Shown here in pieces: positions 19,882 through 32,434 of a stretch of 32,595 nt of DNA. The notes beneath the pieces were generated by a model. That model ran no database searches. It saw only the letters and a list, made by a program, of their open reading frames with translations, and was not told the DNA's origin. How positions within the stretch are numbered: position 1 is the stretch's first letter; every line of letters starts with the position of its first letter. The position numbers were made by a program, and so were the translations under genes. This DNA comes from Lachnospiraceae bacterium (GTDB lineage: Bacteria; Bacillota; Clostridia; Lachnospirales; Lachnospiraceae). The stretch spans positions 1 through 32,595 of the forward strand of contig JAETON010000031.1 of NCBI GenBank assembly GCA_021771695.1. Reading direction: 5' to 3'.

Positions 19882-21804
19882 TTATTCTTTTTCAACCTTG
19901 CGGATTTCCTTTGTTGTAATTTCTTTTTGAATCATTGCAAGGAAGTCATCCATAGACATCTGCCCTTCATCTCCTTTGAAACGGCTTCTTACGGAAACAG
20001 CATTGTTTTCTTCTTCTTTTCCACCGACAACTAACATATATGGAATCTTATGAAGCTGTGCTTCACGAATTTTATATCCCATCTTTTCAGCTCTCGTATC
20101 AATTTCTGCACGAACTCCAGCAGCTTTTAATGCATCCAGCACTTTGTTTCCATATTCCAGATGCTTATCAGAAATAGGAATGACCTGTACTTGTATTGGT
20201 GCCAGCCATGTAGGGAATGCTCCAGCAAAATGTTCAATTAAGATACCGATGAATCGTTCAATAGAACCAAATGCTACACGGTGAATCATGATTGGGCGAT
20301 GCTTTTCTCCGTCTGCACCAATGTAATTTAAGTCAAATCTTAATGGAAGCTGGAAATCTAACTGAATGGTTCCACACTGCCATGTTCTTCCAATGGAATC
20401 TTCCAAGTGGAAGTCGATTTTTGGCCCGTAGAAAGCTCCGTCTCCTTCATTTACCACATAATCAAGTCCTAAGTCATCCAATGCACCGCGGAGAGACTCT
20501 GTTGCCAATTCCCAATCTGCGTCACTTCCCATACTGTCTTCTGGACGTGTAGAAAGTTCTACATGATATTTAAATCCAAACAGATTATATACCTCGTCAA
20601 TTAAGCCTGCAACACCCTTGATTTCATCTTTGATCTGTTCCGGTGTCATGAAAATATGTGCATCATCCTGTGTAAAACAACGGACACGCATTAATCCATG
20701 AAGCTGGCCGGATTTTTCATGACGATGAACCAATCCAAGTTCACCCATGCGCAGCGGGAGATCACGATAAGAACGTGGTTCAGACTGATATACTAAAACA
20801 CCGCCAGGGCAGTTCATTGGCTTGATAGCAAAATCTTCTTCGTCGATGATCGTTGTATACATATTTTCTTTATAGTGATCCCAGTGGCCGGATGTTTCCC
20901 ATAAGTGTCTGCTTAACATAATCGGTGTAGAAATTTCTACATAGCCTGCTTTGTTATGAATTTCTCTCCAGTAATCTAATAAAGTGTTTTTAAGAACCAT
21001 TCCTTTTGGCAGGAAAAATGGGAAGCCAGGTCCTTCATCTCTCATCATAAACAGACCAAGCTCTTTGCCAAGTTTTCTATGATCACGTTTCTTTGCCTCT
21101 TCCATCATAGTTAAATAATCTTTTAATTCAGATTTTTTAGAAAAAGCTGTTCCATAAATACGTGTCAGCATTTGATTCTTTTCACTTCCACGCCAATAAG
21201 CACCTGCAATGCTGGTTAGTTTGAAAGCTTTCACTGGTTTTGTTGTCATCAAATGAGGCCCTGCACATAAATCAACAAATTCTCCCTGTTGATAAAAACT
21301 AATGACAGAATCTTCCGGAAGATCTTCAATCAATTCCACTTTATATGGTTCATTGCGTTCTTTCATAAATGCAATCGCTTCATCTCTCGGTTTTGTAAAG
21401 CAGGTAAGTTCTAAACCTTCTTTGACAATTTTTTTCATTTCTTTTTCGATTTTTTCTAAATCATCCTGTGTAAATGGAGTATCCTTTTCCATATCATAAT
21501 AAAAACCATTGTCAATGGATGGTCCAATTGCCAGTTTTGTTTCCGGATACAGACGTTTGACTGCCTGTGCTAAAATATGGGAAGCTGTATGGCGAAAGGC
21601 ATGTTTTCCTTCATCAGAATCAAAAGTTAAAATGTTCAATTCACTGTCTTCTTCAATTACAGTTCTTAAATCAACAACTTCTCCGTTAACTTCTCCTGCA
21701 CATGCAGCTCTTGCAAGTCCCTCACTAATATCCTTTGCAATGTCAATAACAGACATGCTCTGTTCGTATTCTTTTACAGAACCATCTTTTAATGTAATTT
21801 TCAT
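19882..21804 (-). CDS. thrS: Threonyl-tRNA synthetase
   Basis: 640 residues, normal for bacterial ThrRS. Order: TGS domain (1-62), editing domain with HTASH (72-76) and CAGPH (180-184), class II core with MNCPGG, the motif 2 region MRVRCFTQDDAHIF and motif 3 IHRVAFGSIERFIG, then the anticodon-binding domain (LAPIQVQVIPIS onward). The zinc ligands (Cys of MNCPGG, His of HRHEKSG, His of HRVAFG) are present. It charges tRNA-Thr and clears Ser-tRNA-Thr. The ATG at 21804 follows AAAGGAA; a longer frame to 21864 runs back toward the terminator and is rejected. Controlled by the T-box leader upstream. Confidence 0.97.
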   Translation of the reverse strand: MKITLKDGSVKEYEQSMSVIDIAKDISEGLARAACAGEVNGEVVDLRTVIEEDSELNILTFDSDEGKHAFRHTASHILAQAVKRLYPETKLAIGPSIDNGFYYDMEKDTPFTQDDLEKIEKEMKKIVKEGLELTCFTKPRDEAIAFMKERNEPYKVELIEDLPEDSVISFYQQGEFVDLCAGPHLMTTKPVKAFKLTSIAGAYWRGSEKNQMLTRIYGTAFSKKSELKDYLTMMEEAKKRDHRKLGKELGLFMMRDEGPGFPFFLPKGMVLKNTLLDYWREIHNKAGYVEISTPIMLSRHLWETSGHWDHYKENMYTTIIDEEDFAIKPMNCPGGVLVYQSEPRSYRDLPLRMGELGLVHRHEKSGQLHGLMRVRCFTQDDAHIFMTPEQIKDEIKGVAGLIDEVYNLFGFKYHVELSTRPEDSMGSDADWELATESLRGALDDLGLDYVVNEGDGAFYGPKIDFHLEDSIGRTWQCGTIQLDFQLPLRFDLNYIGADGEKHRPIMIHRVAFGSIERFIGILIEHFAGAFPTWLAPIQVQVIPISDKHLEYGNKVLDALKAAGVRAEIDTRAEKMGYKIREAQLHKIPYMLVVGGKEEENNAVSVRSRFKGDEGQMSMDDFLAMIQKEITTKEIRKVEKE

Positions 21805-21833
21805 TTTTATGTTCCTTTCTTTAATTATTATGA

Positions 21834-22072
21834 AATAAAAAATCCCATGGATATAAAAATCCATGGGACGAATGATCGCGGTTCCACCCTGGTTGCCAAT
21901 AAATCACTGGCCTCTCAAATGACGATAACGGTGTCAGCCGGGCTGGTTTACAGCCGCTTCGAGGTGGTCTTCATCTGCTATGATACTTAAGATACTTTCA
22001 GCACTGGGTATCTCTCTCTGGAAGTCTTTCACAGACTACTCTTCTCTTCAACGCTTTTCCTATTTCTCACAC
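21834..22072 (-). promoter_or_regulatory. T-box riboswitch (tRNA-Thr sensing) leader of thrS
   Basis: On the minus strand the T-box sequence AGGGTGGAACCGCG lies at 21877-21890. After it comes a terminator stem, TCCCATGGAT/ATCCATGGGA (21843-21868), and a T6 run. The long upstream part has Stem I features, including an AGAGAGAG stretch. ACC threonine triplets in GAAGACCACCTC (21961-21972) are the likely specifier. Uncharged tRNA-Thr would pair with the specifier and with UGG-type T-box bases and favour antitermination. Confidence 0.92.
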
Positions 22073-22116: not shown

Positions 22117-23313
22117 TTATGATTCTTTCAAAGTAACTTTAATCGAACAGATTTCAGCAATGGTTCCAACACGCATATTGGGACCAAACAATCCAACTCC
22201 GGAAGTTACAATATTGTGCATATTTCCTTTTTTCAAATATCCGCAGGAATTTTCCCATAAACAACTTGTAATGATGTTTCCAGGAAACATCTGTCCATCA
22301 TGGGTATGCCCGCATAAATCCATATCAACTCCTGCTTTCGCAAGTTCCTCCAGCTCTCTTGGTTCATGGTCAATGACAATCACAGGTTTTGACATATCCA
22401 ATGATTTGGTAATTTCGTTTGGTGTTTTTCTTTTGTTTATTCCACGCCCCGGACGTTCATAATCCGGTCTTCCATATAAATAAAAACTATCATCAATCAA
22501 AACCGCCTCATCCATTAAAAGATGAATTCCGGCTTCTTGTAAAAATAGATCCATCCTTGGATCGCTGGCTTTTTTCTTTTCTCCCCCAAAAGTAAATCCT
22601 GCTAAAATTTTTTCTTCAATGTCATGGTTTCCGTAAACTGCATAAACCCCATATTTACTTTTAATTCCCTTTAAAATAGAAGCCAGCTTTTTGGGATGAT
22701 CCAATGCCTTATATTCATTGTCAAAAATGTCACCGGCAATCACGACCAAATCTGGATGCTGCTTATTGATTTTTCGGACCATTTGTTTCATATGCAGACA
22801 GCCGATATTGTATCCTAAATGTAAATCCGCAGCAAGAACAATCTTTAGTTCTTTTTTATTTTTCACTTTTTTCGGAATCGATACTTGATATTTTGTTGTG
22901 TGAATTGTTCTTGCATTTGCCACACCCCATAGACTGGTAGTAAGAACAATTGCTGCGCAGATGCTTCCAACCAACGCAAATACTTTTTTTGTACATAATT
23001 TTCTATGCTCTGGTTTCCGTATATTTAGATAAATAATACGAAGTAAATCTGCAGCTACGATAGCGGCAACCATGTACATGAAAACTCCAAGCCAATAATT
23101 ACTGATTAATTTTATGATCCGACGCAGCTTTCCTGACGGCAGTAAAAATGCAATTAACATAGACATGGCAAAAAAAACATAAACAATCACTATCATTATA
23201 CGGAAGCGTTTTTTCTTTAACGTGTCATGGAAATTTTCCAGCCATTTTATAATTCGATATAAAAGATAACCATTGATTAAAAAATAAAATGGAGATAAAA
23301 AAACTGCAATCAT
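22117..23313 (-). CDS. Membrane-anchored calcineurin-like metallophosphatase (YkuE-like)
   Basis: 398 residues from the ATG at 23313, whose ATGA overlaps the stop of the radical SAM gene and is spaced 10 bases from AGGAG; a GTG 6 bases earlier is too close to that site. Four hydrophobic segments (about 4-24, 40-60, 75-98, 112-132) precede a phosphoesterase domain. Metal ligands: Asp163 and His165 (DLHLG), Asp195 (GDIFD), Asn229/His230 (GNHD), His316 (DHEP), His336 and His338 (GHTHDG). Relatives act on lipid or envelope phosphoesters such as UDP-sugars or phospholipids; the substrate here is unknown. Last gene of the run starting at 29738. Confidence 0.9.
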   Translation of the reverse strand: MIAVFLSPFYFLINGYLLYRIIKWLENFHDTLKKKRFRIMIVIVYVFFAMSMLIAFLLPSGKLRRIIKLISNYWLGVFMYMVAAIVAADLLRIIYLNIRKPEHRKLCTKKVFALVGSICAAIVLTTSLWGVANARTIHTTKYQVSIPKKVKNKKELKIVLAADLHLGYNIGCLHMKQMVRKINKQHPDLVVIAGDIFDNEYKALDHPKKLASILKGIKSKYGVYAVYGNHDIEEKILAGFTFGGEKKKASDPRMDLFLQEAGIHLLMDEAVLIDDSFYLYGRPDYERPGRGINKRKTPNEITKSLDMSKPVIVIDHEPRELEELAKAGVDMDLCGHTHDGQMFPGNIITSCLWENSCGYLKKGNMHNIVTSGVGLFGPNMRVGTIAEICSIKVTLKES

Positions 23314-25040
23314 AGGCACATTTCTCCTGTATTTATCGGAATTACAAAAGCTTGATGATTTAAAGGATTACGTTTCTGATAATCAAACAATAAAATAGTT
23401 TCTTTTTCAATGCCCGTTTCATGCACATCGTATTTGAACTTTTCAATATGCATCATCTTCCGCATGTTTTTTTGTGCATAAGATGCAAGATTTGGTGTTT
23501 TTGAAAGAATTTCATCGTAGATATAATAAAGTTCTTCTTTTCCAATCGAATATTCTCCAGTAAACTTTGGACGATTTTTAATATTTTCTCGTAAATATAA
23601 ATCAAAAGTCAAAAGTTCACGGTAAAAAGATATTCTATGATTTTTTACATTTTGCTTTATAAAAGCATATAAAATTTCATATCTGGAAATTCTGGAGTGA
23701 TTTATTTTGTGATAATTATTTTCTTCATAAAATTCTCCAAGTTTTTGGTACATTTCAAAAGGAGAAGAAAATTCCTGCTCCAAATATTTCATCGTATATG
23801 AAAATTGACCGCTGTTGTAATAAGTCTCTACCATATTTTCAACAGATTTAAGTATCAGTATGTTCTCATATGAGAGCCATTTTGTATATAAAACCTCATA
23901 AGGCGGAATATCTTTATATACTAAACCATATGCCTCTTTTTGTTCTTCCATATAAGAACCCTTTAAAACTTTTAAAAAACCTAGCTGCAGTTGTTCAGGT
24001 TTCACTGCATAGACATCATTAAATGATTGCTCAAAGCTTGACAAATCTTCGTAAGGAAGTCCAGCGATTAAATCCAAATGCTGATGTATATTCTTCCCTG
24101 CATTGATTTGTTTCACGATTGCTGCCACTTTTTTAAAGTCCATCTTCCGGTGAATTTCGTCAATTGTCTCTGGATTTGTAGATTGAACACCGATTTCCAA
24201 CTGAATCAATCCGGGACGCATGTCAGAAATTAACAAAAGTTCTTCTTCATTTAGTAAATCTGCTGCTACTTCAAAATGAAAATTAGTAATCCCATTATCG
24301 TGTTCTTTGATATAACTCCAAATGGTCATGGCATGTTTATGATTGCAGTTAAAGGTACGATCTACAAATTTCACTTGAGGTACCTGATGATCTATAAAGA
24401 ACTGCAACTCTTTTTTTACCATTTCAAGATTACGGAACCGAAGGCATTTGTCCACGGAAGATAAACAATAACTGCAGGAAAATGGACATCCACGGCTGGA
24501 TTCATAATAAATAATTTTATGCTGAAAATCTTCCATATGATGATAAACAAATGGCACTTTGCTTAAATCTATCACAGGACGCCATGGATTTTCAATGATC
24601 TTTGTTTCCTCTCGATAAGTAATTCCGCCAATTTGAGCTAAATCTTCTCTTTTACCATGGTAATAATCCATAACTTCTAAGAAGGTTTCTTCCCCTTCTC
24701 CCTTCATTACACCAGTGACTTGCGGAAGTCTTTCTAAAACATTTTTTGCATCATAAGAAACCTCCGGGCCGCCAAGCCAAACCGGCATGGCAGGAAAAAG
24801 TTTTTTTACTTCCCGAAGGATTCGTTCTACATATTCAATATTCCATATATAACAGGAAAAACAAAGAATATCCGGTTTTTTCTTATATAAGTCCATTAAA
24901 ATATCATCTGTTTGCTGATTGATTGTATATTCTGCAATTTGGATATCAGCTGTATAAGGTTTTGCATATGCCCGCAGTGAATAGACAGCCAAATTGGAAT
25001 GGATATATTTTGCATTAATTGCAGTTAATATAATGTTCAT
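23310..25040 (-). CDS. B12-binding-domain radical SAM protein (DUF4080 type)
   Basis: 576 residues. N-terminal cobalamin-binding-like Rossmann domain (1-130; the usual DxHxxG base-off motif is not seen). Radical SAM core with Cys185, Cys189 and Cys192 in GCPFSCSYC, followed by the TIM-barrel stretch to about 400. The C-terminal part looks like DUF4080. INAKYIHSNLAVYSLRAY is the family start. The reaction is unknown; such proteins methylate or rearrange unactivated carbons. It begins 55 bases after the AspA-like gene, with an AAAGGAT site, and overlaps the metallophosphatase start by 4 bases. Cotranscription with the ATP-grasp cassette is plausible. Confidence 0.9.
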   Translation of the reverse strand: MNIILTAINAKYIHSNLAVYSLRAYAKPYTADIQIAEYTINQQTDDILMDLYKKKPDILCFSCYIWNIEYVERILREVKKLFPAMPVWLGGPEVSYDAKNVLERLPQVTGVMKGEGEETFLEVMDYYHGKREDLAQIGGITYREETKIIENPWRPVIDLSKVPFVYHHMEDFQHKIIYYESSRGCPFSCSYCLSSVDKCLRFRNLEMVKKELQFFIDHQVPQVKFVDRTFNCNHKHAMTIWSYIKEHDNGITNFHFEVAADLLNEEELLLISDMRPGLIQLEIGVQSTNPETIDEIHRKMDFKKVAAIVKQINAGKNIHQHLDLIAGLPYEDLSSFEQSFNDVYAVKPEQLQLGFLKVLKGSYMEEQKEAYGLVYKDIPPYEVLYTKWLSYENILILKSVENMVETYYNSGQFSYTMKYLEQEFSSPFEMYQKLGEFYEENNYHKINHSRISRYEILYAFIKQNVKNHRISFYRELLTFDLYLRENIKNRPKFTGEYSIGKEELYYIYDEILSKTPNLASYAQKNMRKMMHIEKFKYDVHETGIEKETILLFDYQKRNPLNHQAFVIPINTGEMCL

Positions 25041-25095: not shown

Positions 25096-26046
25096 TTATT
25101 GTTGAAAATATTCTGCTTCCGGATCTTGAATAATTTTTACTACAGCTGTATTAGAGTAAATTAAAGGATTGGACCCATGATAAAAGATTCTTCCGCTGCA
25201 TGGTGCTTTGATTTCTTCGATGGTATGTCCTTCATAGGTATCTAAAATTTCACCAATAATTTGTCCTTCTTTTATATGATCACCACAGTCACAATTTAAA
25301 AATAAAATACCAGATTGATTGGTACGAACAGTTACCAATTCCTGTTCTTCAATGATTCTGCTGCAGTGTCCGCCATCTTTTGAAATATGGATCAATCCTT
25401 GATTTGCCAAAAATCTAAGTACCGCATTGATACCTTCATTTGCCTGTGCTTTATCAATTTGATCTGTCCCCGGAGTATATAGAGAAAACGCCTGTGTTCC
25501 CCATAACTGCCATTCATAATTTAAAGTGGTTGTATCATATGGTTTTGGATTTCGCAGCATAATATACGGCATTCCGAATTCTCTTGCGATTTCCGTATTT
25601 TCAAATCCTGTTTTCATGATTCGTACATGTGGTGTGAAATTTCCTTCCAGATAAAAACTGGTAAAATGAATCCCATAAATATAGTCATTCACTTTCTTGA
25701 AAAATCCATCTGCAATTCTTTGTGTTGTTTCTCCTAAATCATATCCCGGAAACATGCGGTTAATATCTGTGTTATCCGTTGCCCAGAATCTGGTATTCGT
25801 ATTTAAAGAATATGGATTGATAGATGGAACAATCATAATCCCGCGATTTGTATCTATTTGTCCGCGATTTTCCAAGAGGTTTAAAATTCTCACTAATTGA
25901 GAACACATATATAATTGCTGTACTTCATTTCCTCTGATGGCACCAACAATACATACCGTTTTTTCACTACCGCCGAATTGATATCCATATATTTTTAAGG
26001 AATCCCGATATAAAGATTTTAATTCATATAATTGTACTTTTTTCAT
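25096..26046 (-). CDS. AstE/AspA-family metallopeptidase-fold protein, probable pseudoenzyme
   Basis: 316 residues, paralogous to the next gene upstream (314 residues): both have NRMFPG/NRIFPG at the same position and a C-terminal lipoyl-like barrel (about 225-300). Active-site residues of the M14-like fold are changed. Arg38 (AIRGNE) stands for the first zinc His (His42 of the paralogue), and Tyr190 (SLYTPG) for the catalytic Glu191. Glu41 and His127 remain. The nucleotides read AGA for Arg38. It may regulate or scaffold its active paralogue or bind a ligand. ATGA overlap with the upstream gene shows tight coupling. Confidence 0.85.
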   Translation of the reverse strand: MKKVQLYELKSLYRDSLKIYGYQFGGSEKTVCIVGAIRGNEVQQLYMCSQLVRILNLLENRGQIDTNRGIMIVPSINPYSLNTNTRFWATDNTDINRMFPGYDLGETTQRIADGFFKKVNDYIYGIHFTSFYLEGNFTPHVRIMKTGFENTEIAREFGMPYIMLRNPKPYDTTTLNYEWQLWGTQAFSLYTPGTDQIDKAQANEGINAVLRFLANQGLIHISKDGGHCSRIIEEQELVTVRTNQSGILFLNCDCGDHIKEGQIIGEILDTYEGHTIEEIKAPCSGRIFYHGSNPLIYSNTAVVKIIQDPEAEYFQQ

Positions 26047-26987
26047 GCAATCACTTCATTCCTTTCCAGTATTCTTCCAAGTAAAGAACCTTCGCTAACC
26101 ACAGGATACTCACGCAAGGTAAATAAAATCCCGTCGCAGTCGGAAAAAATCTCTTCTTTTATAATTCCTTCCAGCGGATCAATAATTTCTCCGATTTTAT
26201 CTCCTTTTTTTACAGAAGTCCAATGTTCTACCGTTGGAATAAAAACGCCTGCATATCCTGCGTTTAAATAGTGCACTTCTCCGTCTGTAGAAATAATTGG
26301 TTTTTTGGGTTCTATAATACTGCCCTGCCAGATACCTAAATCTTTCATTTCAACGAAAATTCCATCGACAAGTTCTTTGCAGTATTCCCTGGTAACACGC
26401 ATTCCTACTCCCATTTCTACAACTAATACAGGAGTTCCAATAGAATTCAGAGAATGAGCAAAGGTGGCTTCTAAAACCGTAGCTGTACCATGAACCCAGA
26501 TATAATCAATATTCAAACGTTTCGCAAATGGTACTAAAGTGTCTGCACACATTTCATTAATTCTAACTTGCGGAATTTCACGGAGAAAAATATTGCTTGC
26601 ATGGATATCCACACATAAATCAGAACCTTGTACATCATTGATGATTTTTGATGCAATATATTCTGCCATAGAACCTTCACTGTTTCCCGGAAAAATGCGG
26701 TTCATATCTAAATCAAAATGTGGAATTCCTCTGGTAATCGAATCAATTCCCAATGGATTTAGTGCCGGATAAATATCAACAATTCCTGTTAGCAATTCCG
26801 GATGTTCATTGATTCTTTGCTGGATTTCATAGCATACATACTGTCCTTCCAGTTCATCTCCATGAATCCCTGTAACAATGCTGATTCGTTTTTCATTTCC
26901 CAATAAATTTTCCGGCTGTAATCTTTGTTTTTTTACAATATAGTTTTCGGCTGCCGGAAGAGGAGCCGCTGCTACTGTCTGTATCAT
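26043..26987 (-). CDS. AstE/AspA-family zinc deacylase/carboxypeptidase-like protein
   Basis: 314 residues. Intact catalytic set of the succinylglutamate desuccinylase/aspartoacylase family: His42 and Glu45 (GIHGDE), His129 (DIHAS) and Glu191 (VVEMG), with NRIFPG at 96-101. Family enzymes split an amide bond of N-acyl amino acids or short peptides. The C-terminal part (about 235-310) is a small beta barrel. The gene overlaps the transglutaminase gene upstream (ATGA) and the pseudoenzyme copy downstream (ATGA). Within this cassette it may trim or deprotect the amide product made by the ATP-grasp protein; this is inference. Confidence 0.88.
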   Translation of the reverse strand: MIQTVAAAPLPAAENYIVKKQRLQPENLLGNEKRISIVTGIHGDELEGQYVCYEIQQRINEHPELLTGIVDIYPALNPLGIDSITRGIPHFDLDMNRIFPGNSEGSMAEYIASKIINDVQGSDLCVDIHASNIFLREIPQVRINEMCADTLVPFAKRLNIDYIWVHGTATVLEATFAHSLNSIGTPVLVVEMGVGMRVTREYCKELVDGIFVEMKDLGIWQGSIIEPKKPIISTDGEVHYLNAGYAGVFIPTVEHWTSVKKGDKIGEIIDPLEGIIKEEIFSDCDGILFTLREYPVVSEGSLLGRILERNEVIA

Positions 26988-27772
26988 TTGATTTCCTCCA
27001 CCAATACTTTAATTTCCTGTGCCTCATGGCACCTTCCTAAATAAATTCCTTTATTAATGATGCAATCGGCACTATCCCGTCCTCGTGCAAAAACAATATA
27101 TAAATCATCGACCAACAGATGGTTGGTAGGATCAAATCCATACCATTTCCCATCACTGAAAATTTCCACCCATGCATGAGAAAACCCTTCTCCAATCATT
27201 GCACCAGAGACATATCTTGCCGGAATTCCAAGCTGACGGCACATTCCAATCATAACGTGGGCATAATCCTGACATACCCCTTTCTTAAGAGAAACGGCTT
27301 GTTCCGCTGTTGTATAAATACCAGTGACTCCTTTGGTATAAGTGAAATAATTATAAATCCGATCCATAATTTCGCAGGCTTTTCCATAAGCTTTTGGCTT
27401 TTTTTGTATATAAGGTGCAATATGGTCCAAGTAATTTTTCATAGAAATGCCGGGGATTGTTAAAGGAGTCTGCGTTAAAAACAAATGATTATAATGGTCA
27501 TCTCCATCATAAATCCTCCAATCTGTTTTTGCTATTCCGGAAACAAGGATATAAAATTGTTGATGCTGGTTGTTCATCGTTCCATAAATTGTCCGGCTGC
27601 CAAAACCATCCTGTCCAAATGCCCAGTAGTCACAAGGAGAAATTTTAACATTTAAATCTGTAATTTCCTGTCTTGGTTCACTTTTCGGAACACAGCGGTA
27701 AGCAAAATGATGATTGACCACTGGTTCTTGAAAATGGATTTTTTGTTCATAGAGAAATTTTAATTGATGCAA
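26984..27772 (-). CDS. Transglutaminase-like cysteine peptidase/amidase
   Basis: 262 residues with an N-terminal beta domain (1-115) and a transglutaminase core. The catalytic triad is Cys167 (GVCQDYAH), His199 (FSHAWVE) and Asp214 (GFDPTNH). No signal peptide, so it acts in the cytoplasm. The start is TTG at 27772, 8 bases after AAGGAG that lies inside the alpha-E gene; no ATG occurs early enough. This protein type travels with ATP-grasp and alpha-E genes in many bacteria and is thought to cut or transfer amide bonds of the product. It overlaps both neighbours. Confidence 0.9.
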   Translation of the reverse strand: MHQLKFLYEQKIHFQEPVVNHHFAYRCVPKSEPRQEITDLNVKISPCDYWAFGQDGFGSRTIYGTMNNQHQQFYILVSGIAKTDWRIYDGDDHYNHLFLTQTPLTIPGISMKNYLDHIAPYIQKKPKAYGKACEIMDRIYNYFTYTKGVTGIYTTAEQAVSLKKGVCQDYAHVMIGMCRQLGIPARYVSGAMIGEGFSHAWVEIFSDGKWYGFDPTNHLLVDDLYIVFARGRDSADCIINKGIYLGRCHEAQEIKVLVEEIK

Positions 27773-28443
27773 TGATACTTCTCCTTAATAATTGTTTCGC
27801 TTACCTTTACTCCATCCCAATAATCGATTTGGCTGGATGTTACATTCATCCCCAGACGATCCAAAGCATCTTTATCATAATCGAGATAGCCTTTCCGCAG
27901 TCTTGCTACCAGCATATGAAAAGGTTTCATCATACATTCTTTGCTTTTCCTTAGCCTCAAATATAAGTTTAACCGTTCCAAATGACGTCCAGCTTTAATA
28001 ACGGAACGAATCTGTTCACTGTCAATATAATCGTCAGTACATGCCCAAAATGCCAATATATAATCCAAAACTTTTTGAAGGTCCAATAGTTCTATCTCGC
28101 TGTTTTTCGCATTTCTTAATTGATTCAGTGCCAGTTCCATATAGGATAAAGTTTCTGTTCCAAGAGTATGGCGAAGCACAATTGCATTGTCATATGCACG
28201 ATTCAAATTTGATAAAATAGAATCTGGATTTTCTTCGTCAAAAGCATATTTTAAAAGAAAATCTGCTGCTGATGTATAACAATTTGGAATTGTAAAATCC
28301 CTGCAATAAGTAATATAAAATTCCGGATCTTCAATCATCCGGTCTCTGCCCTTAAAATAATATAGGATGGTCGTATATACTCGTTCTGTATACCTTCCAA
28401 GCCAGTAAATGTGATTCATTTCTTCTACTGAGATAATATCCAT
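27760..28443 (-). CDS. Alpha-E domain protein (DUF403)
   Basis: 227 residues, all helical. The N-terminal IYWLGRYTERVYTTI corresponds to the FWLGRYxERAENxAR signature of the alpha-E family; LGTETLSYMELALNQL and AGRHLERLNLYLRLRKS are further helices. It is shorter than the 300-residue proteins usual for the family, so part of the helical repeat may be missing. The function is unknown; it is a constant partner of circularly permuted ATP-grasp proteins. Starts after AGGAGG and overlaps the ATP-grasp gene by 19 bases, so the two are cotranslated. Confidence 0.85.
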   Translation of the reverse strand: MDIISVEEMNHIYWLGRYTERVYTTILYYFKGRDRMIEDPEFYITYCRDFTIPNCYTSAADFLLKYAFDEENPDSILSNLNRAYDNAIVLRHTLGTETLSYMELALNQLRNAKNSEIELLDLQKVLDYILAFWACTDDYIDSEQIRSVIKAGRHLERLNLYLRLRKSKECMMKPFHMLVARLRKGYLDYDKDALDRLGMNVTSSQIDYWDGVKVSETIIKEKYHCIN

Positions 28444-29738
28444 GTGTCTTTAAAACCTCCTCCTTGAGATGAGTTTACAACAAAGGAATCTGGATTCCTT
28501 GTAAATCTTGTTAAACCGCTTTTCCATACTTTTGTTTCTTTTCCTGAAAGGACAAATACTCTTAAATCTGCTTTCCGGTCAACTAGAAATTGGTCATCTA
28601 AAATTCCCATATCTTGAAAATCAATAACTTCTTGCGCAATAAACCGTCTGGATTCTAAATGTATTTTTTCTTTCATTTGCTGTTTTTCTTCCTTGCTTAG
28701 CTGATTTCCAAAAACAACTCCGTATCCGCCGGCTTCGGCAACGTCTTTGATCACAAGATTTTCAAAATTTTCTAATACATACCTTCGATCTTTTTCAAAA
28801 AATGGAAGATAGGTTGGTGCATTATGAAGAATTGGTTCTTCTCCAAGATAATAACGAATCATTTCCGGTACGAAATAATAAATTCCCTTATCATCTGCAA
28901 TACCATTTCCCGGAGAATTAATTAATGCAACATTTCCTTTGCGGTAGACTTCCATCAAATGCGGAATACCAATCAAAGAGTCTTCACGAAATGCCATTGG
29001 ATCCAGAAAATCATCGGACACCCTGCGGTAAATTGCACCAACTTTTTTCTTCACTCCATTATATGTTTTATAGTACAAATAATCTCCATTGACTTCTAGA
29101 TCATTTGGAAATGCCAAAATGGAGCCTGTTTTTTCAGCAAGATAAGAATGCTCAAAAAAGGCAGCATTATATCTTCCGGGAGTAAATACCACATTGATTC
29201 CGCCAGTGTTAACATCATCCATTACTGTCCGAAGCATAGAACCATAATTACGATTATCTTCTACATTATTTTCACGAAATGTATTTGGACTTGCCTTTCG
29301 GCATAAATTTCTGGCAATCATCGGATAAGAGGCTCCAGACGGCACCCTTAAATTATCCTCTAAAACATACCAAATTCCATCTTTTCCTTTAACTAAATCA
29401 ATCCCGGCGATGTGTGCAAAGATATTCTGTGGCGGCACAATTCCTTGACATTCTGATAAAAATCCAGGTGATACAAAAATAAATTCTTCTGGAATCACTC
29501 CATCTTTTACAATTTGTTGTTCTGTATAAATATCCAGAAGAAAGCGATTCAATGCGTCCACTCTTTGAATCAATCCTTTTTCCAACTCTTTAAATTCTTC
29601 ATGCTCTATGACTCTTGGAATTGGATCAAAGGGAAACAGTTGTTCATGAAATTCATTGTTTTTATAGATGCCGAATTTCACACCATAACGGGCAAGCAGC
29701 TGGTTAATTTCATCTTTGAGTAAAACCAATTTTTCCAT
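28425..29738 (-). CDS. Circularly permuted ATP-grasp protein (DUF404/DUF407 type)
   Basis: 437 residues. Family stretches: AGIDLVKGKDGIWYVLEDNL (about 111-130) then RVPSGASYPMIARN, TPGRYNAAFFEHSYLAEKTG, AIYRRVSDDFLDP, LINSPGNGIADDKGIYYF and VIKDVAEAGGYGVVFG. ATP-grasp enzymes activate a carboxylate as acyl phosphate and join it to an amine. Published comparative work (Iyer and colleagues on amidoligases) predicts peptide-like products for such operons. First gene of the cassette, preceded by AGGAGGATTT. The region 29739-29834 upstream has ACTTTA/TAAAGT (29810-29827), an inverted repeat that could be an operator; no clear promoter is seen. Confidence 0.9.
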   Translation of the reverse strand: MEKLVLLKDEINQLLARYGVKFGIYKNNEFHEQLFPFDPIPRVIEHEEFKELEKGLIQRVDALNRFLLDIYTEQQIVKDGVIPEEFIFVSPGFLSECQGIVPPQNIFAHIAGIDLVKGKDGIWYVLEDNLRVPSGASYPMIARNLCRKASPNTFRENNVEDNRNYGSMLRTVMDDVNTGGINVVFTPGRYNAAFFEHSYLAEKTGSILAFPNDLEVNGDYLYYKTYNGVKKKVGAIYRRVSDDFLDPMAFREDSLIGIPHLMEVYRKGNVALINSPGNGIADDKGIYYFVPEMIRYYLGEEPILHNAPTYLPFFEKDRRYVLENFENLVIKDVAEAGGYGVVFGNQLSKEEKQQMKEKIHLESRRFIAQEVIDFQDMGILDDQFLVDRKADLRVFVLSGKETKVWKSGLTRFTRNPDSFVVNSSQGGGFKDTWILSQ

Positions 29739-29834: not shown

Positions 29835-29874
29835 ATGAAAAAAAGACGCTCTGTTTTATAAACAGAACGTCTTT
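29835..29874 (-). terminator. Terminator after the flavin reductase-rubredoxin gene
   Basis: AAAGACG (29842-29848) with CGTCTTT (29868-29874), and TCTGTTT (29850-29856) with AAACAGA (29860-29866), form a 14-bp stem with one mismatch. A run of seven T follows on the minus strand. It ends the OLD/rubredoxin unit and insulates the ATP-grasp cassette. Confidence 0.85.
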
Positions 29875-29942
29875 GCTTTGCTTAGATATATCATAGAATA
29901 GATTCCTACAATTGTCAAGATGCTGCTGCTAACAAAATATAG

Positions 29943-30548
29943 TTATATTTTTTCAAAATCTTCTGCACCATGTTTGCAAAGTGGACATATAAAATCTTTT
30001 GGAAGTTCTTCTCCTTCGTAAACATAGCCGCAGATTTTACATCTCCATCCGGTTTTTTTTGTTTCTTGAGGTTTTGGCTTGATATTTTTATGGTAATATG
30101 CGTATGTAACAGACGCAGTTTCATTTAATACATCTCCATCTGTTACATCTGCAAGAAATAAAGTATGAGTTCCCAAATCAATGGTATGGAATACTTTTGC
30201 ACTTAAATAGGCGTTTGTGCCTTTCGTTAAATAGAAAATACCGTTATCTGCAATTTCATAATCTGTGAATCCTTTCATTTTGTCTACGGTTTTGCCGCTT
30301 TGAAATCCAAAATGTTGAAATGTATCAAAAGCTGCATCTTCAGATAAGATCGATACATTAAATGTTCCGGTACTCATGATCATATCATGGGTATAATTTT
30401 CTTTATTTACTGCAGCTAAGATTCGATTTGGGGATGTAGTTACCTGCTGTACTGTATTTACAATGCAGCCATTACTTTTTTCACCGTCTTTTGCAGATAG
30501 TACAAAAAGACCGTAGCTCAATTGAAACATTGCGTTCTTATTCTTCAT
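29943..30548 (-). CDS. Flavin reductase-like protein fused to rubredoxin (high-molecular-weight rubredoxin type)
   Basis: 201 residues from the ATG at 30548, 7 bases after AAGGAGGG. An FMN-binding split-barrel domain (1-160; SYGLFVLSAKDGEKSNGCIVNTVQQVTTSP is the family start) is joined to a C-terminal rubredoxin with two CxxC pairs, CKICGY and CPLCKH, holding one iron. Similar proteins (Hrb of Moorella) pass electrons from NAD(P)H to flavodiiron or peroxide/NO-reducing enzymes in anaerobes. Here it overlaps the end of the OLD nuclease gene by 11 bases. The longer frame to 30629 lies inside that gene and is rejected. Confidence 0.92.
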   Translation of the reverse strand: MKNKNAMFQLSYGLFVLSAKDGEKSNGCIVNTVQQVTTSPNRILAAVNKENYTHDMIMSTGTFNVSILSEDAAFDTFQHFGFQSGKTVDKMKGFTDYEIADNGIFYLTKGTNAYLSAKVFHTIDLGTHTLFLADVTDGDVLNETASVTYAYYHKNIKPKPQETKKTGWRCKICGYVYEGEELPKDFICPLCKHGAEDFEKI

Positions 30549-32403
30549 AAAATGCCCTCCTTCTATTTTGAAAATAAATAAAATGGTTAATTGCATCCAA
30601 AATATCTTGAAAATCTTTTTTGGGTGCAATGGTAATATATTTTTTTAACAACTCTTTTTCATCTTTTTTATACGGACCATAAAAAATATCAAACAGATTA
30701 TGTCCCCGCAGATAAATTTTTATTTCTTCTATATGATTTTGTATATCTTTTGGAGATTGAAAATCATATCCAAGAATTTCTGTAAGGTGTTTTCCACTTT
30801 TGATTCTATGAAGATATTCTTTCCATTTTTCAAATAAAATTTCGTAAAAGCTGGATTCTGTAGATAGAATACCCAATTGCACCATCACAGCTGGATTTAG
30901 AAAATAATTCTCAAATGAATAATATTTTAAAATCAATACATTTTCTCTTCGGACTTTCGGCAAACGGTCTGCATCCGAAAGGTTTCTTTCATCATAGTAT
31001 TTACAAAGCTGTCTTCCAAGCTCTTCCGGATTCTTTCCATCACTGTCTCGAATCATCAAAAACTGATCTTTCATATATGTCTGATTCATATATTTTAAAT
31101 TTGCATAGGTTTTTATATTCGTACAACTGTTGGTTGTGATAATTGCTACACGGTTTAACTTTCCATTTTCATCATATATTTCAGAATAGTAATGTTCCAA
31201 AAGCAGCGGAAGCCGGTTTTTATCCTGCTTTCCTTCTACAATAAATACAAAATTAACATTCATTAAATCTGCAGCCGTATATCCTAAATCATCTAAAATG
31301 GTACTAATATTTGTTTTCTCTTTTGCAATGGAATAAAAATTTTCGTCCAAAATAATCTGCCGGATTTGACGGCTGTTGAAGTTTGATAAAAGATTTGGTG
31401 AATGCGTTGTAAAAATTACTTGGTTTTTCTGAGATAATCGATATAAAATCTCACTGGAAGTTTTCTGAAGCTGCGGATGCAGAAACATTTCCGGATCTTC
31501 TACCATAATCATAGATGGCAGAATGTTTTTCTCAGCTACATAGGCCTCCAGCAAAGATAACATATAAATGCTTTTCATACCTCTTCCAAGATGTTCCACA
31601 GAGATTGTCTGTTCCCTGACTCTGTTTCGTGCATGGGCTTGTACTTGAAGAATCTGATTCACATCATAATTCATGGAAAACAAAATATCTTCATAACCTC
31701 CATTTTTATGGAAACTTTCATTAACTCTTTTTTCAAAATCATCGATATTCTGCTGATACAGTTTGTATTCGAAAAGCTTTGATGCTTCAAATGCATTTAA
31801 TTCTTCTGGTGTTTTCTGATTAATTAATCCAATACAATGGAAACAATGGCTGCATGATTTTGCACGATCGAACATACAACAGTTTGTACGCATAAGCTTC
31901 AATAAGTTATTTTCTTGGAGCATCAAAAGATCTTCTTGTATTTTCTGCATATTCCTCTCGGTTCCAATAAAATAAATATCTGGCAATACTTTTGGAATAT
32001 ATTTATTATTTTTTTTTACGCCATCATAAAATCTAATTTTCCCTTCTTTGTTTGCAATAAATGTAAAATTTAAAATTCCATCACGATAAGAGGGCAGACG
32101 GTTTTGAAAATCCTTTTCCCATAAATCATATTTCTTATATTGGCTGACAATTCCCTTTTCATGGAGTATATGTTTATCATTTGGGGTAATTGATAGGGAG
32201 ACATTGATTTCTATATTCTGCATACTTTCATTAAAATCTTCTGGTGTGATTTGATAGGATCCACTGACTGCACGTAAAGCATGAATCACAGAAGATTTTC
32301 CTGCATTATTTTTCCCTACTAAAATGAATGCATTTTCTATATTTTGCAGTTTCATATCCCGAATGGATTTGAAATTTTTAATATGAAGATTCGTAATCTG
32401 CAT
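30538..32403 (-). CDS. OLD-family ATPase/TOPRIM endonuclease with cysteine cluster
   Basis: 621 residues from the ATG at 32403, after GGAGAA. N-terminal ABC-type ATPase: ITNLHIKNFKSIRD, Walker A GKNNAGKSS (30-38), signature-like SVEHLGRGMKS, Walker B MIMVEDPEMFLHP and switch TTHSPNLL. A C-terminal TOPRIM domain has VEGKQDKNRLP (Glu) and MIRDSDGK (DxD). Between the ATPase halves is a cysteine cluster: Cys175/176, Cys184, Cys187 and Cys190, able to hold zinc or Fe-S. OLD proteins act in phage defence or DNA repair, often with a helicase (Gabija); no helicase gene is next to this one within the window. The downstream partner is the flavin/rubredoxin gene. Confidence 0.9.
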   Translation of the reverse strand: MQITNLHIKNFKSIRDMKLQNIENAFILVGKNNAGKSSVIHALRAVSGSYQITPEDFNESMQNIEINVSLSITPNDKHILHEKGIVSQYKKYDLWEKDFQNRLPSYRDGILNFTFIANKEGKIRFYDGVKKNNKYIPKVLPDIYFIGTERNMQKIQEDLLMLQENNLLKLMRTNCCMFDRAKSCSHCFHCIGLINQKTPEELNAFEASKLFEYKLYQQNIDDFEKRVNESFHKNGGYEDILFSMNYDVNQILQVQAHARNRVREQTISVEHLGRGMKSIYMLSLLEAYVAEKNILPSMIMVEDPEMFLHPQLQKTSSEILYRLSQKNQVIFTTHSPNLLSNFNSRQIRQIILDENFYSIAKEKTNISTILDDLGYTAADLMNVNFVFIVEGKQDKNRLPLLLEHYYSEIYDENGKLNRVAIITTNSCTNIKTYANLKYMNQTYMKDQFLMIRDSDGKNPEELGRQLCKYYDERNLSDADRLPKVRRENVLILKYYSFENYFLNPAVMVQLGILSTESSFYEILFEKWKEYLHRIKSGKHLTEILGYDFQSPKDIQNHIEEIKIYLRGHNLFDIFYGPYKKDEKELLKKYITIAPKKDFQDILDAINHFIYFQNRRRAFYEE

Positions 32404-32434
32404 GGCATTTCTCCTTTGGAATGAAATCATTTTT

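Follow-up and report, generated by a model that had tools for sequence, protein, structure and literature searches.

We describe a five-gene cassette encoded in a contig of a Lachnospiraceae bacterium (JAETON010000031.1; the whole stretch of 32,595 nucleotides that was analysed is called the window here). It encodes an ATP-grasp protein, an alpha-E protein, a transglutaminase-like protein (TG) and two AspA-type proteins (ASP1 and ASP2), and forms a discrete unit, conserved in relatives, that is a variant of the Anbu-type cassette. The Anbu operon is composed of genes for an ATP-grasp protein, an alpha-E protein, a transglutaminase and Anbu (PMC6376114, PMC5666114). It shares with our cassette the first three families (here called the trio), their order, the predicted formation of an amide and a hydrolase in fourth place, but where that operon has Anbu the cassette has two AspA-type proteins, one of which is catalytically degenerate. 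An earlier note on this DNA had called the trio a known predicted amide-forming set; the families do match, and we can add that the trio is that of the published Anbu operon and that Anbu is absent.

Organization and conservation of the cassette

All five genes lie on the minus strand. The first (28425..29738) codes for a circularly permuted ATP-grasp protein of 437 residues, a predicted carboxylate-amine ligase (PF14403, E 4.8e-138; PF04174 is also matched), the second (27760..28443) for a short-form alpha-E protein of 227 residues, a probable helical partner of the ligase (PF04168, E 4.1e-15), and the third (26984..27772) for TG, a cysteine enzyme of 262 residues with a TTG start (PF01841 and PF08379). 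They are followed by ASP1 (26043..26987), an AspA/AstE-type metallo-hydrolase predicted to be active, and ASP2 (25096..26046), a paralogue lacking metal ligands and the catalytic glutamate; both match AstE_AspA_cat (PF24827, E 3.1e-21 and 8.4e-16, respectively). The open reading frames (ORFs), the overlaps of 19, 13, 4 and 4 bases and the TTG start reported in the earlier note are exact, and its gene identities agree with the Pfam labels. A purine-rich stretch precedes all five starts (GGAGG or GGAG, weaker before the last gene, GGAA), which makes the TTG start plausible.

Searching genome contigs with the ATP-grasp protein returned 186 relatives, the closest being Lachnospiraceae metagenome genomes (ATP-grasp identity of 90% and 86%), and the counts of loci given here refer to the best 80. 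All five genes are present, in order and on one strand, in 70 of these; by the rule of our script all frames are whole in 59 of the 70, and the other 11 have a stop or a short frame in one or two genes. Grouped at 90% ATP-grasp identity, the 80 loci form 51 groups, 47 of which include the complete set. Five further loci (L063, L070, L098, L101 and L102) stop at a contig edge at most 250 bases past the last gene found.

The claim of an operon-like packing is supported. In relatives, for which our script applied one simple criterion to choose the starts, an overlap of 19 bases between the ATP-grasp and alpha-E genes is also the median (77 of 78 overlap), and the same applies to the 4-base overlaps of the TG/ASP1 (37/70 overlap) and ASP1/ASP2 (46/70) junctions, whereas the 13-base overlap between the alpha-E and TG genes is not conserved (10/77 overlap, with a median gap of +12).

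Beyond the five genes the neighbours are variable. Clustering of the ORFs of at least 40 residues within 8 kb of the 80 loci, which excludes shorter ORFs and those overlapping longer ones, gave a largest cluster present in 16 loci, without a fixed side or strand, and a conserved sixth gene was therefore rejected. One further cluster occurs in 10 loci, in 8 of these downstream on the same strand, and a LysR-like gene (identified by eye) is found upstream on the opposite strand in 8 loci. No precursor-peptide gene common to the neighbourhoods, such as a graspetide or other RiPP cluster would have, was seen among these clusters; the earlier note had seen no precursor either, and in agreement with this no neighbour gene or short ORF is common to more than 16 of the 80 loci. 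The window's own neighbours were also rejected as parts of the unit, since they have no matches beside the cassette in the 80 loci, with the exception of a 29-residue match to the window's flavin-reductase-like protein in L087.

The association was also observed in 200 genomes of the same family, including the genome of the window; PF14403 is matched in 36 of the 200 and PF24827 in 73. Leaving out five genomes with only weak ATP-grasp hits, 31 were retained, 25 with a full-length ATP-grasp gene (counting one, G188, whose gene runs into a contig end) and 6 with a broken or fragmentary one. A tandem AspA pair is present in all 25, in 23 of them on the same contig and strand as the ATP-grasp gene and within 5 kb; in the other two (G114 and G076) the pair is on another contig, and the TG gene is near a contig end or cut by it. 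The comparative genomics proposed in the earlier note thus found the AspA genes conserved with the trio in relatives. Among the six remaining genomes, one (G037) has an AspA pair adjoining its ATP-grasp gene, which is interrupted by an internal gap, one (G094) has the pair elsewhere, and four (G124, G019, G083 and G025) have no tandem pair. Altogether, the pair is present in 27 and absent in 4 of the 31 genomes with an ATP-grasp hit, and present in 19 and absent in 150 of the other 169 (Fisher p 4e-17, uncorrected for kinship).

A truncated ATP-grasp stretch runs directly into the tail of an AspA gene in two of these genomes (G124 and G025) and into that of a TG gene in a third (G019). Such stretches resemble the scars that internal deletions of the cassette would leave and, unless the assemblies are faulty, most of the cassette was therefore lost in one stretch in at least two genomes. 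Loci L026, L027 and L030, in relatives, show truncated ATP-grasp stretches of this kind, running straight into the end of an AspA or TG gene.

In a sample of 398 genomes of the phylum, 38 have a PF14403 match, which is strong (E below 1e-100) in 9, including the genome of the window; the other 29 matches, at E 1.7e-11 or worse, were considered weak and left out. The AspA pair adjoins the ATP-grasp gene in five of the eight other genomes with a strong match (G492, G535, G446, G523 and G501), and the adjacency extends to four other families of the phylum; in G523 and G501 the pair still adjoins an ATP-grasp gene whose product is only about 41% identical to that of the window. The trio itself is present in at least four phyla.

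The ATP-grasp, alpha-E and transglutaminase-like proteins

The ATP-grasp protein is a near full-length relative of the solved structure 3n6x (E 1.2e-110), for which the depositor's name, "putative glutathionylspermidine synthase", is itself a prediction, and 79 of its positions do not vary among the 23 proteins compared, which come from Bacillota, Pseudomonadota and Bacteroidota. The residues Cys167, His199 and Asp214 of TG, which we take to be the catalytic triad, are kept in 19/19 members compared. The alpha-E protein is short, matching positions 7-168 of the 294 of the PF04168 model; the longer forms seen elsewhere exceed it by about 80-110 residues. Its structure was modelled with a predicted local distance difference test score (pLDDT) of 92.6, and the model has no match among PDB folds at E <= 0.001; given such a confident model, the alpha-E fold may be new to the PDB. 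Fusions of ATP-grasp with alpha-E, in a Tsukamurella plasmid (L241), and of alpha-E with TG, in G368 (L149), argue that the trio probably works as one machine.

ASP1 and ASP2, an intact and a degenerate AspA protein

ASP1 and ASP2 are 23% identical over 290 columns. From the roles in the aspartoacylase family, we assume that His42, Glu45 and His129 are the metal ligands, that Glu191 is catalytic and that Arg86, Asn96 and Arg97 bind the substrate (ASP1 numbering throughout). We aligned 206 proteins, dropping rows with internal stops or with fewer than 280 residues (2 of 70 for ASP1 and 4 of 70 for ASP2). All these residues, and Asp127, are kept in ASP1 of the window, in 68/68 cassette relatives and in 5/5 proteins from the phylum set. 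In ASP2 of the 66 cassette relatives, the His42 position is always an arginine, Asp127 is replaced by Gln or His, His129 by Thr, Ala or Pro, and Glu191 by Tyr (65) or Phe (1), while Glu45, Arg86, Asn96 and Arg97 are kept in 66/66. ASP2 of G523 and G501 retains both histidine ligands and has a methionine at Glu191, a pattern suggesting that loss of the base preceded that of the metal site.

The residue patterns bear out the description, in the earlier note, of one intact and one degenerate AspA protein, but the degenerate copy is conserved, retains its substrate-binding residues and looks like a working subunit. Plain decay of ASP2 was rejected, since across 69 rows 73 of 316 positions hardly vary. 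A tree of 104 proteins, with 16 cassette loci (two chosen and 14 random), places ASP1 and ASP2 in separate clades (support 100/97 and 98/92, respectively), each including the members from the phylum set, which indicates that the duplication is old and that both copies were retained. The bootstrap of this tree had not settled and its root is for drawing only; the three rows intended as outgroup fall inside it, two being copies of rows already in the set and the third (L180) belonging to a further pair in G045.

The structure model of ASP2 has the AspA fold (mean pLDDT of 87.3, although residues 86-93, beside the binding motif, are below 50), with 3cdx as the best PDB match (E 4.8e-19). The simplest reading of the residue pattern and the model is that ASP2 is a conserved non-catalytic partner which probably still binds substrate. 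The model also matches 8eip (E 2.2e-18, with 14% identity), a structure of CphZ, the cyanophycin dipeptide hydrolase with an AspA fold (8ein and 8eip). The best NCBIfam match of both ASP1 and ASP2 is TIGR02994, that of the N-acetyl-diaminobutanoate deacetylase DoeB/EutE, and 6twl and 6twm are solved relatives of the two proteins; an identity as DoeB/EutE was ruled out, since the scores (40.7 bits for ASP1 and 33.2 bits for ASP2) are far below the cut-off of 402.7. In one relative of the same class (L150, 2169-3704), an ASP2 homologue is fused to a methyltransferase domain.

Comparison with the Anbu operon and other systems

In a Klebsiella plasmid the trio has the same order as in our cassette, and Anbu occupies the slot filled here by the AspA pair. 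The proteasome family PF00227 has no match in the genome of the window, with 10 of 14 control genomes positive. The Klebsiella Anbu, used as query, found itself as control and nothing in 13 Bacillota genomes, although a single query may miss a distant Anbu. No description of the AspA version was found in the literature searched, a search that did not cover the 2009 amidoligase paper of Iyer and colleagues.

In Pseudomonadota, genes of the trio or Anbu have been tied to nitrogen, with induction reported when nitrogen is limiting (PMC5491218, PMC8050072, PMC6376114): a cluster in Burkholderia is lowered in an ntrC mutant (PMC5491218) and expression in P. putida is higher on nitrate than on ammonium (PMC8050072). 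An association with urea domains in marine metagenomes likewise connects the trio to nitrogen supply (PMC3597751).

AspA-annotated proteins were reported to be beta-Asp-Arg/Lys dipeptidases, a step performed elsewhere by the N-terminal nucleophile (Ntn) enzyme IaaA (PMC10206079), which is a precedent for an Ntn enzyme and an AspA-type enzyme performing the same step. Cyanophycin itself is an unlikely product of the cassette, since no match to the Cyanophycin_syn domain (PF18921) was found in the genome of the window.

Proposed mechanism and alternative explanations

We propose that the cassette is a variant Anbu-type amidoligase system, whose hydrolase is composed of an AspA enzyme and a pseudoenzyme and which makes and turns over one amide-linked product; we regard this as the best of the readings considered, with chances that are roughly even. 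The make-and-trim path suggested in the earlier note is partly supported. The ATP-grasp protein would use ATP to activate a carboxylate, which it would then link to an amine; alpha-E would be a helical protein dedicated to partnering it, and TG would cleave or exchange an amide of that product. Hydrolysis, a step proposed elsewhere for the Ntn hydrolase Anbu, would here be taken by a two-protein AspA module, in which ASP1 would act as a metal-dependent amide hydrolase, probably on an isopeptide or an N-acyl-amino acid, and ASP2, in a putative complex with ASP1, as a non-catalytic partner binding the carboxylate-bearing substrate. As its product we consider most likely a small conjugate of amino acids with an amide or isopeptide link, which would be synthesized and later degraded, perhaps under nitrogen stress.

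A narrower version of this proposal, in which the cassette provides gut Bacillota with an isopeptide-based amino-acid reserve or conjugate cycle, the trio making the bond and a heteromer of AspA enzyme and pseudoenzyme replacing Anbu as the isopeptidase, has a parallel in the degradation of cyanophycin, one step of which falls to IaaA in some bacteria and to an AspA-type enzyme in others; we put it forward tentatively, as possible but less probable than not.

Several observations weigh against the amidoligase reading. Starting with the comparison with Anbu, the 2017 study reports that the Anbu proteins tested had no peptidase activity and that the proteins of the operon showed no specific interaction (PMC6376114). 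The link to nitrogen is known from phyla other than that of the host. In the seven plasmid neighbourhoods read among 117 records with a match, with incomplete gene tables, annotated AspA was absent (0) and an annotated Anbu or proteasome-type protease occurred in one, so the replacement in this slot rests on few examples of Anbu. The three other phylum genomes with a strong PF14403 match (G221, G418 and G368) have no adjoining AspA pair, and the Anbu query gave no match in them either.

The trio also occurs without the pair. In four loci (L085, L086, L099 and L109) no AspA gene lies in the sequence of over 8 kb that follows the trio, and their genomes, which represent two lineages (L085 and the other three), have no PF24827 match (0/4, against 4/4 comparison genomes); in a fifth locus (L106), no AspA gene is present in the 1293 bases remaining after the trio. 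The AspA pair is therefore not required by the trio in four, perhaps five, of the 80 loci. Conversely, a tandem AspA pair without an ATP-grasp hit is present in 19 of the 200 family genomes, and of 20 pairs retrieved from outside the vicinity of the trio, 13 have a purL homologue next to them (immediately in 12 and across a single ORF in one). The genome of the window has itself a second tandem pair, on contig 9 (L035, 10884-12772), between a Na/H-exchanger-type gene and a gene that is purL-like by eye, the first member of which has His42, Asn96 and Arg97 replaced by Tyr, Ser and Thr, respectively. Since pairs occur without ATP-grasp and since, in the tree, cassette copies and copies away from the trio are interleaved, the pair can work, or have worked, apart from the trio.

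These occurrences of trio and pair without each other, and the proximity to purL, are what would be expected if the AspA pair and the trio were two modules with separate jobs that merely share one transcript. We consider this explanation rather doubtful, because the pair is present in every family genome with a full-length ATP-grasp gene and the adjacency recurs in the four other families. Moreover, among the 20 fetched ASP1 proteins away from the trio, His42 is kept in 17 and Arg97 in 12, compared with 68/68 in the cassette; this indicates a weaker constraint away from the trio, and such an intact site in the cassette and a variable one elsewhere are as expected if the trio sets the constraint.

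Alternatively, the trio could attach amino acids or short peptides to proteins, with ASP1 and ASP2 removing them. Tagging of proteins is among the hypotheses published for the Anbu operon (PMC6376114), protein-modifying ATP-grasp ligases exist, such as RimK acting on RpsF (PMC12239564), and a protein target would agree with the lack of a precursor-like ORF common to the neighbourhoods. Nevertheless, small-molecule deacylases (DoeB, 6twl/6twm) are among the proteins of solved structure that are related to ASP1 and ASP2, the ASP2 fold also matches the isodipeptide hydrolase CphZ, and none of our results points to a protein target, so that we regard tagging as unlikely. A pathway for a secreted specialised metabolite, a peptide-like natural product, would fit the patchy spread (full-length ATP-grasp in 25/200 family genomes), the variable flanks and the apparent loss by internal deletion in some genomes, but it is very improbable, as no neighbour present in more than 16 of the 80 loci means no conserved exporter, carrier or precursor, within clusters that were not annotated individually.

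Other features of the window

Upstream of the cassette, the earlier note had placed a terminator. A terminator-like hairpin of 15 pairs with a 3-base loop and a T run is indeed present (29842..29874, minus strand) and recurs in the close relative L036, with none seen in the stretch of L037; terminator-like sites as such are no commoner than chance (4 found in the scan and 4.0 expected in shuffles). An unproven promoter-like site, TTGACA-17-TATGAT (29890..29918, minus strand, 11/12 matches), lies just upstream of the hairpin, and such sites are likewise not above chance in the region (25 found and 29.8 expected). A known RNA leader on the cassette was rejected, since at Rfam gathering scores the window has only a thrS T-box and a piece of a group II intron, and so was a defence system, since the five cassette proteins have no PADLOC match.

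Directly downstream of the cassette, on the same strand, a B12-binding radical SAM protein with a DUF4080 domain is encoded (23310-25040), which was not found beside the cassette in the 80 relatives. The T-box leader (21861-22060) precedes a threonyl-tRNA-synthetase-like gene (19882-21864), and the group II intron domain match (RF02003) is at 909-1042. An OLD/GajA-like AAA ATPase, possibly a defence-type nuclease, is encoded at 30538-32430 (PADLOC Old, E 9.7e-37).

Implications

In the 2017 study (PMC6376114) the role of the trio was still unconfirmed. AspA-type enzymes hydrolyse amide bonds adjacent to a free carboxylate. The presence of this family, whose chemistry is well understood, in the hydrolase slot narrows the search for the product of the trio, and a conserved pseudoenzyme in which the binding residues are kept may be a ligand trap for that product. 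If a heteromer of ASP1 and ASP2 does replace Anbu, ASP1 would be the first practical handle on what the trio makes.

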